Below, piece by piece: positions 43,343 to 46,357 of a DNA stretch of 46,838 bases; the stretch's first letter is position 1, and each line of letters starts with the position of its first letter. A program made the position numbers and the translations under genes. The notes under the pieces were generated by a model. It did no database searches. It had not been told where the DNA came from and worked only from the letters and a program-made list of their open reading frames with translations. Source of the DNA: an uncultured Pelagibacteraceae bacterium (lineage in GTDB: Bacteria > Pseudomonadota > Alphaproteobacteria > Pelagibacterales > Pelagibacteraceae); the NCBI GenBank assembly GCA_902529785.1, contig CABZXV010000007.1:1-46838 (forward strand), read 5' to 3'.

Positions 43343-44617
43343 TTAAAATTGTTCGGACTCGGTTGATCCTTCCATTGCTGTGGTTGAACTCTTACCTGAG
43401 CTAATTGTATTTGAAACAGCATCAAAATAAGATGTACCTACTTCTCTTTGATGTTTAACACTAGTATATCCATCTTTTTCTCTAGCAAATTCATGCTGTT
43501 GGATTCTAGAATAAGCAGTCATTCCTTCTTTTTTATATTTTTCTGCTAACTCAAATATCGCAATATTTTGTGTATGAAAACCAGCAAGTGTAATAAATTG
43601 AAATTTGTAACCCATTTCTCCAATTTTTCTTTGGAAAGATCCAATTTCCTCATCTGACAAATGTTTCTTCCAATTAAATGATGGTGAACAATTATAAGCT
43701 AACATCTTACCAGGATATTTTTCATGAATAGCATCAGCAAATTTCTTTGCTTCCTCTAAATTTGGAGTTGCTGTTTCACACCATATTAAATCTGCGTATG
43801 GTGCATAAGCTAGACCTCTTGAGATTGCTTGCTCAATTCCATCTTTTACATAAAAGAAACCTTCTGGGGATCTTTCGCCAGTTAAAAAAGGTTTATCATT
43901 TTCATCAAAATCATTGGTAATTAATTTAGCAGCATTAGCATCAGTTCTAGCAAGAATGATGAGAGGGACATCTGCTATATCTGCTGCTAATCTTGCTGCT
44001 TTAAGGTTTCTAACCATAGTTCCAGTTGGAACCAAAACTTTACCACCCATGTGACCACACTTTTTCTCACTCGCTAATTGATCTTCAAAGTGAACGCCAG
44101 CGGCACCTGCTCTAATAAATTTTTTTGTTAATTCGAATACATTTAACGGACCACCAAATCCTGCTTCTCCATCAGCTATTATCGGTAACATATAATCAGT
44201 TCTTTTACTTTTATCCATGTCTCCATCTATCATTTCCATATGTTGAATTTGATCAGCTCTGATTAAAGAATTGTTCATAGTCTCAACTAATTTTGGTGCA
44301 CTATCATATGGATATAATGATTGGTCAGGATACATTTCACCAGCACTATTAGCATCAGCTGCCACTTGCCAACCACTTAAATAAATTGCTTTTAATCCAG
44401 CTTTTGCATGTTGAACTGCATGATTTCCAGAAAGTGACCCTAATGTGTTCACATAAGACTCTGTGTTTAGAAGTCTCCAAAGCTTTTGGGACTGCATTTT
44501 GCACATCGAATACTCAATTTTAATTGATCCTCTTAATCTCTCAACTTCCTCGGGTGTATAATCTCTTTTAATACCTGCAAATCTCTGTAAATCGTATGAA
44601 ATGTTTTCAGCTGACAC
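43343..44617 (-). CDS. aceA: Isocitrate lyase
   Basis: [43 protein letters not shown]. Confidence 0.97.
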
Positions 44618-44660: not shown

Positions 44661-44822
44661 TTAATTTGAGCTATATTCTTCAGTAAATTCGTTCATTCCG
44701 CTTGATCCCCAATCGCAATGATCGTCTCTGATGTAGATGCCTTTAGACTTATGCTCAGAATGCTCTTCTTTGTTAGTAATTTGGTAGTTATTTTCTATGT
44801 TGTTGATTTTGTTTTTTTCCAT
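44661..44822 (-). CDS. Unlisted 53-aa small ORF co-directional with aceA
   Basis: Manual translation: MEKNKINNIENNYQITNKEEHSEHKSKGIYIRDDHCDWGSSGMNEFTEEYSSN*; below the cutoff of the supplied ORF track; 43 nt upstream of aceA. Confidence 0.6.
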   Translation of the reverse strand: MEKNKINNIENNYQITNKEEHSEHKSKGIYIRDDHCDWGSSGMNEFTEEYSSN

Positions 44823-44833
44823 GTAAACTTTAT

Positions 44834-44852
44834 AATTTACAATATTTACAAA
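44834..44852. repeat. 19-bp direct repeat, copy 1 (aatttacaatatttacaaa)
   Basis: Identical to 44907-44925; lies just upstream of the small ORF start on the minus strand. Confidence 0.85.
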
Positions 44853-44896
44853 ATCTACAATTAATTACATTTTCCTTGTAAAATACAATAATTTTA

Positions 44897-44914
44897 TGTA
44901 AATTTAAATTTACA
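44897..44914. promoter_or_regulatory. 18-bp perfect palindrome tgtaaatttaaatttaca, candidate operator
   Basis: Exact self-reverse-complement in the aceA/regulator intergenic region. Confidence 0.6.
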
Positions 44915-44925
44915 ATATTTACAAA
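44907..44925. repeat. 19-bp direct repeat, copy 2 (aatttacaatatttacaaa)
   Basis: Identical to 44834-44852; immediately upstream of regulator start codon. Confidence 0.85.
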
Positions 44926-44932
44926 TAGTAAA

Positions 44933-46357
44933 ATGAGTCAAATTGATACAAAAATCGGTCCAAAAATCAAAGCTTTTAGAAGACAGTTAGGTATACAAGC
45001 TAACAAACTAGCTGAGGAAATGTCTATCTCTCCAAGTTATTTAAATTTAATCGAAGGTGGAAAAAGGAAAATTGATGGTGATTTACTATTAAGAGTTTGT
45101 GATAAACTTAAAATAGAACTTTCAGATTTAACAAGTAAGACAGACATTAATCTAGAAAATAATATATCTGAGTTGTTGGGTGATGAGCTTTTTGAAGATC
45201 TAGATATCTTGGGGCCAGAAGTAAAAGATTTAGTTAATACTAATCCAAAAATTGCTAAAGCTTTAATCAAGTTAGGGGATAATTTTAAGCAAAAAGATCA
45301 TGAAATTTTTAATAAACTAGAAAATATTTCAGGTAAAATTATTGATGGAAGAAAAAATGCATTTCCTGGGGAAGTAATTTCAGATTTTTTACAAGAGAAT
45401 AAAAACTTTTTTCCAAAACTGGAAGAATTTGCAAATAAAATCTTTGATAAGGTTAAACAAAATAACAGAACAAGATATATAGCTCTTTGTGATTTTCTAA
45501 AAACTGAGTATGGTATAACAGTAAAAGATGTGATTCCAAAAGAAGGAAAACCATTTTCAAAAATATACAAAGTTAAAGAAAAAGAGTTATTATTATCTGA
45601 TTATCTTTCACTTGAAACAAAAAAACTTTTTGCCGCTGCACAAATTTCACAAGAAGGAGCATCAAAAGAAATTGATGAGTACCTATCCACATTTAGTTTT
45701 CCAACGAATGAGTCTAAAAAGTTAACTAGGGTTGCTCTCTTAAATTATTGTGGAGCAGCAATATTAATGCCCTACTCTCTTTTTCATAAAGAGTGTAAAG
45801 AATTAAAATATGATCTTGAACTTTTACAAAATACATTTGCAACTTCGTTTGAACAAGTTGCACATAGAGTAACCTGTTTACAAGATCCTAAACTACCTGG
45901 AATACCTTTTCATTTTTTAAGAGTTGATGTTGCTGGAAACATATCAAAAAGATTCTCATTATCAGGCATTGAAATACCAAGGTATGGCGGCGCTTGTCCT
46001 CGATGGAATGTTTATTCAGCTTTTTCAAGACCTGGGGTAATTCAAGCAGCAGTAAGTAAAATGACTAATGGAGAAAAATACGTTTGTATAGCAAAGACAG
46101 TTGAAAAAGGTGTTGGAAGATATGGACAAAAGAAAAGTATGTTATCTATAGGTCTTGGATGCGAGGCGAAATATGCAAAAGAATTTGTTTATACTGAAAA
46201 TTTAGATTTAACTGATAAAAAATCTGAGTTGCCTATAGGCGTATCATGTAGAACGTGCGATAGACTTGATTGTTCACAAAGAGCCTTTCCACCTCTTCAT
46301 AAAAAATTTGATGTAGATATCAATTCTAGAGGAGTTTCTGTTTACGTAAATGAATAA
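44933..46357 (+). CDS. XRE-family short-chain fatty acyl transcriptional regulator (ScfR/RamB-like)
   Basis: N-terminal HTH (IQANKLAEEMSISPSYLNLIEGGKRKI); C-terminal DUF2083-like region FEQVAHRVTCLQDP...YGGACPRWNV...GVSCRTCDRLDCSQRAFPP. Confidence 0.88.
   Translation: MSQIDTKIGPKIKAFRRQLGIQANKLAEEMSISPSYLNLIEGGKRKIDGDLLLRVCDKLKIELSDLTSKTDINLENNISELLGDELFEDLDILGPEVKDLVNTNPKIAKALIKLGDNFKQKDHEIFNKLENISGKIIDGRKNAFPGEVISDFLQENKNFFPKLEEFANKIFDKVKQNNRTRYIALCDFLKTEYGITVKDVIPKEGKPFSKIYKVKEKELLLSDYLSLETKKLFAAAQISQEGASKEIDEYLSTFSFPTNESKKLTRVALLNYCGAAILMPYSLFHKECKELKYDLELLQNTFATSFEQVAHRVTCLQDPKLPGIPFHFLRVDVAGNISKRFSLSGIEIPRYGGACPRWNVYSAFSRPGVIQAAVSKMTNGEKYVCIAKTVEKGVGRYGQKKSMLSIGLGCEAKYAKEFVYTENLDLTDKKSELPIGVSCRTCDRLDCSQRAFPPLHKKFDVDINSRGVSVYVNE

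Follow-up and report, generated by a model that had tools for sequence, protein, structure and literature searches.

What controls the divergent genes for isocitrate lyase (aceA) and an ScfR/RamB-like regulator in SAR11, and is the dense array of TTTACA/TGTAAA hexamers between them an operator? The window, the whole 46,838-nucleotide stretch of DNA analysed here, comes from an uncultured Pelagibacteraceae bacterium. We consider it very likely that the array serves the divergent ScfR/RamB-type regulator as its operator and governs both transcripts. These would be a leftward transcript of a small ORF and aceA, and a rightward transcript of the regulator itself. This reading is supported because the box pairs are conserved, are nearly locus-specific, show PrpR-like geometry and recur at distant ScfR genes. 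The earlier note on this DNA had already proposed such an operator. That assignment stands, except that the left repeat adjoins a small gene that had gone unnoticed. The features are as follows.

43343-44617, − strand: aceA, isocitrate lyase, left of the small ORF, here without malate synthase
44661-44822, − strand: small ORF of 53 aa, conserved, first gene of the leftward transcript, with core GIYIRDDHCDWGSSGM at 44694-44741
44836-44852, + strand: predicted operator pair L, boxes TTTACAAT (44836-44843) and TTTACAAA (44845-44852)
44854-44861, + strand: degenerate third box TCTACAAT after L, in the same 9-bp register
44875-44882, − strand: near-invariant single inverted box CTTGTAAA, or the −35 element TTGTAA (44876-44881) of the regulator promoter
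44897-44902, − strand: near-invariant TGTAAA, a single inverted box, left palindrome arm or part of a −10 element
44909-44925, + strand: predicted operator pair R, boxes TTTACAAT (44909-44916) and TTTACAAA (44918-44925)
44933-46357, + strand: ScfR/RamB-like regulator of 474 aa, with HTH, IrrE-like and ScfR C-terminal domains

The 19-mer AATTTACAATATTTACAAA occurs at 44834-44852 and 44907-44925, with a start-to-start distance of 73 bp. Each copy contains two 8-bp boxes repeated every 9 bp, TTTACAAW-N-TTTACAA. The two identical 19-bp direct repeats and the hexamers paired 9 bp apart within each, both described in the earlier note, are thus as reported, and the 18-bp palindrome said to overlap the second copy is found at 44897-44914. 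The seven TTTACA/TGTAAA hexamers are at 44822 (−), 44836 (+), 44845 (+), 44877 (−), 44897 (−), 44909 (+) and 44918 (+). They fall within 102 bp, where 0.135 are expected from the remainder of the window (Poisson P ~1e-10), in line with the previous count of seven against fewer than one. The density is local, because the hexamer count over the whole window is at background (69 observed, 69.4 expected) with no enrichment. Nor is the 19-mer common AT-rich background; its own 0.99-Mb assembly (about 75% complete) has only two exact copies, both here, and the next-best places have two mismatches. Pair L begins 14 bp from the ATG of the small ORF, and pair R lies just upstream of the regulator ATG at 44933. 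A repeat had been said to abut each divergent start. This is correct for the regulator, while the left start is that of the small ORF (44822), which sits between pair L and aceA, and not that of aceA (44617). An RNA element in the array was considered and rejected, with no match in Rfam.

Upstream regions were compared for about 120 SAR11 relatives, with about 100 loci in the genus of the window. Box pairs are present in nearly all regulator-bearing SAR11 loci; at three loci (L130-L132) no clear pairs were found. The intergenic alignment shows both repeats and their spacing kept in the genus: the distance from L to R is 73 in 95 of 99 loci and 74 in two, and the remaining two were scored as 64 by a mis-pick, the picker having taken the next 9-bp register. 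Pair L lies 14–17 bp from the leftward start codon, and pair R is separated from the regulator ATG by −2 to 12 bp, while the gap between the small ORF and aceA takes about 20 different values from 26 to 82. Among 18 genus representatives with less than 85% identity, both pairs are near-invariant, as are two single boxes in inverted orientation (CTTGTAAA at 44875 and TTGTAAA ending at 44902), and the sequence between the boxes drifts. The third box TCTACAAT is kept in near relatives only. At least 42 exact pairs are listed in 201 genus genomes, 37 at 73 and 5 at 74, and a reversed control pattern is mostly absent. These locus counts are not independent, because the sequences are related. Helical phasing of the repeats had also been proposed. 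In the genus the spacing (73/74) is of the conserved, near-integral kind that a phased loop would need, but seven-turn phasing is not universal, because other SAR11 genera have pair R inverted and spacings of 82 or 90–91 bp, about 7.8 and 8.7 helical turns. A wider regulon was rejected, since one-mismatch scans of complete genomes are about at background except at the aceA-regulator locus. The malate synthase loci have no good operator site.

Outside SAR11, a TTTACAADNTTTACA pair with at most two mismatches is found within 150 bp upstream of 18 of 27 alphaproteobacterial regulators (taken as outside the family of the window, although L151 may be a near relative), compared with 1 of the 243 control windows taken from coding sequence. 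In 17 cases, none of 50 dinucleotide shuffles was equally good. The pairs recur at ScfR genes in GC-richer alphaproteobacteria, and one distant locus (L169) has a TTTGCAAA pair. Because so many distant regulators carry the pair, we take it as an old alphaproteobacterial ScfR operator and not as a SAR11 novelty.

The regulator shows HTH_3, Peptidase_M78 (IrrE-like) and PF09856 ScfR C-terminal (E 1e-59) domains in Pfam, the N-terminal HTH, IrrE-like and ScfR C-terminal combination of the ScfR/RamB/PrpR family. Mycobacterium tuberculosis PrpR matches it at E ~1e-61 and offers the sole close solved structures. Residue C355 and the CX2CX4C motif from C439 (CRTCDRLDC) align with the [4Fe4S] ligands of PrpR, so the cluster ligands of the family are in place and the cluster itself is predicted. 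With the NCBI RamB equivalog NF038139 the regulator scores 355.6 bits, below the cut-off of 700, and it is therefore RamB-like and not an equivalog. A tandem double HTH is seen in 9 of 104 scored regulators (L020, L097-L100, L102, L104, L108 and L117), whose loci carry the usual operator pairs where readable. These versions are patchy on the tree, and their first HTH copies cluster in 88% of bootstrap trees. On this grouping repeated recent duplication was rejected; one old duplication, followed by losses or transfer, is favoured.

How would such a regulator work on two pairs? Each 17-bp pair (L from 44836, R from 44909), with its two boxes in the same direction, would be one binding unit. L is directly upstream of the leftward start and R would overlap the probable start of the regulator transcript, positions that suit repression of both promoters. 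Against this reading, a consensus promoter scan marked no clear promoter at the array positions. A tetramer carrying a [4Fe-4S] cluster would sit on both L and R, which are separated by seven helical turns, and keep the two promoters repressed. It would fall apart when a CoA ester binds or when the cluster is lost at low iron, and aceA would then be switched on. In PrpR the cluster favours tetramerisation (PMC6765138). The RamB tetramer of Paracoccus denitrificans goes to dimers on CoA ester binding, with the tetramer proposed to repress and the dimer to activate (PMC10370305). We consider repression the probable default state. A DNA loop between L and R is suggested more tentatively; a tetramer bridging two phased pairs fits the genus arrangement, but other genera depart from this phasing. 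Control of the array by iron is more doubtful. Isocitrate lyase expression of SAR11 is reported to be higher in iron-limited water (PMC6618146), and no mechanism for this rise was found; such a rise would be expected if the operators are released on loss of the cluster.

The regulator could also act with the opposite sign, because P. denitrificans RamB activates in vivo. It would then be mainly an activator, acting on aceA through R, which lies 87–103 bp ahead of the start of the small ORF, with L as a secondary or repressing site. The site from which the P. denitrificans protein activates lies 82 bp ahead of the gene it controls (PMC10370305), and R is about as far from the leftward start. 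We regard this as possible but unlikely, since the places of L, 14 bp from the ATG on the left, and of R, next to that of the regulator, are typical of repressor sites, and in M. tuberculosis both icl1 and the RamB gene itself are repressed by RamB (PMC3420887).

The hexamers might instead be promoter elements of an AT-rich genome. TAAATT at 44899-44904 is 17 bp from TTGTAA at 44876-44881 and would be a candidate −10 element of the regulator promoter. Both are near-invariant, and the hexamers at 44877 and 44897 suit a −35/−10 pair as well as operator boxes, so that a promoter role may apply to the two single boxes. For the array as a whole this explanation is improbable: the paired 9-bp unit is almost restricted to the aceA-regulator locus and absent at malate synthase loci, it recurs at ScfR genes of GC-richer alphaproteobacteria, and it resembles the footprinted PrpR operator of the family, two 8-bp boxes with one nucleotide between (PMC3420887). 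Low-complexity AT-rich background kept by close kinship, to which the low G+C and the lack of window-wide enrichment of the hexamer alone might point, is hardly conceivable and already contradicted by the local density, by boxes kept while their flanks diverge in the 18 representatives and by their conservation across genera and families.

The operator of the divergent regulator is thus the preferred reading, and its genes tend to occur together. In 15 SAR11 genomes no regulator was detected, and aceA was likewise not detected in 14 of them. The exception (G002, 86% complete) carries aceA, but a different gene precedes it, and both the operator and the small ORF are absent; it is a single case and weak evidence, and its regulator may sit in the missing part. 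Many near-complete SAR11 genomes in the family-level set have neither aceA nor the regulator, so the glyoxylate cassette looks all-or-none.

The small protein has a dN/dS of about 0.02, and 0.002 in its near-invariant core among near relatives, which points to strong purifying selection. In the SAR11 genomes searched its ORF is found only at the aceA-regulator locus, with variants in other genera; none was found in 286 non-SAR11 alphaproteobacteria, and the protein has no family match in Pfam, NCBIfam or PHROGs. AlphaFold gives a mean pLDDT of 58 and no fold, so the protein is predicted to be unstructured. Its origin as a detached isocitrate lyase N-terminus was rejected, the likeness to acidic tails in two other alphaproteobacteria being too loose. 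Other SAR11 genera (L121, L122, L125-L126, L129-L132) have different small genes before aceA, some with SNCV..DDDC motifs, and L121 and L122 have two in a row. The core motif also occurs in marine phage contigs of IMG/VR, either in ORFs of 39–56 aa or N-terminally in a protein of the SpeD family (PF02675). A DD(Q/H).DWGSSG-type motif is present at marine phage loci L178-L187, L213, L216, L220, L231 and L240; some further pattern matches are large unrelated proteins and due to chance. Around SpeD in five pelagiphage records (four isolates, one fosmid-derived) the motif is absent. Host and phage may have a short interaction motif in common.

Taken as one picture, an iron-sulfur CoA-sensing repressor would bridge two phased operators at SAR11 aceA, and the unstructured 53-aa protein of the same operon would share a DD..DWGSSG motif with phages; we rate this full combination as rather speculative. 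If true, the iron-sulfur repressor would explain the onset of the glyoxylate shunt in SAR11 under iron shortage, and phages that carry DD..DWGSSG as small proteins or as a SpeD tag suggest a shared short interaction motif. The conserved operator pair and iron-sulfur ligands make the iron response testable in vitro. The strongly conserved small gene offers a new target; it belongs to none of the families searched, and its motif also occurs in phages.

The operator type is already known, and TTTACAAW pairs, at a spacing fixed in the genus of the window, are its SAR11 version. As in the M. tuberculosis PrpR/RamB operators (prpDC, icl1), two 8-bp boxes lie one nucleotide apart near the regulator gene. 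As with prpR, the regulator is divergent from and next to its probable target; as with RamB, which negatively autoregulates, that target would be isocitrate lyase (icl1). The iron-sulfur CoA-ester sensor fold is also shared, here judged from sequence. Unlike the palindromic TTTGCAAA of PrpR, whose operator is TTTGCAAA-N-TTTGCgAA, the SAR11 box is TTTACAAW and departs from the PrpR-type TTTGC(A/G)AA. Because it is non-palindromic, the same-direction polarity of both boxes can be read, which TTTGCAAA hides. SAR11 further differs from the PrpR/RamB operators in having two full pairs at fixed spacing, with a small gene separating aceA from the operator. At the position of F155, a residue that gives the PrpR ligand pocket its shape (PMC6765138), the regulator of the window has G146. 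Class 2 RamB of P. denitrificans is likewise alphaproteobacterial and divergent from glyoxylate-cycle genes, and is a tetramer with a [4Fe4S] cluster that needs two boxes, as proposed here for SAR11; unlike in SAR11, its boxes are reported 18 bp apart, before malate synthase-isocitrate lyase. Rhodobacter sphaeroides PccR and Corynebacterium glutamicum RamB belong to the ScfR family and have TTTGCAAA-like sites, and are comparable by family and site type. This agrees with the earlier note, which named TTTGCAAA-like motifs for regulators of this family; the box letters in SAR11 are TTTACAAW.
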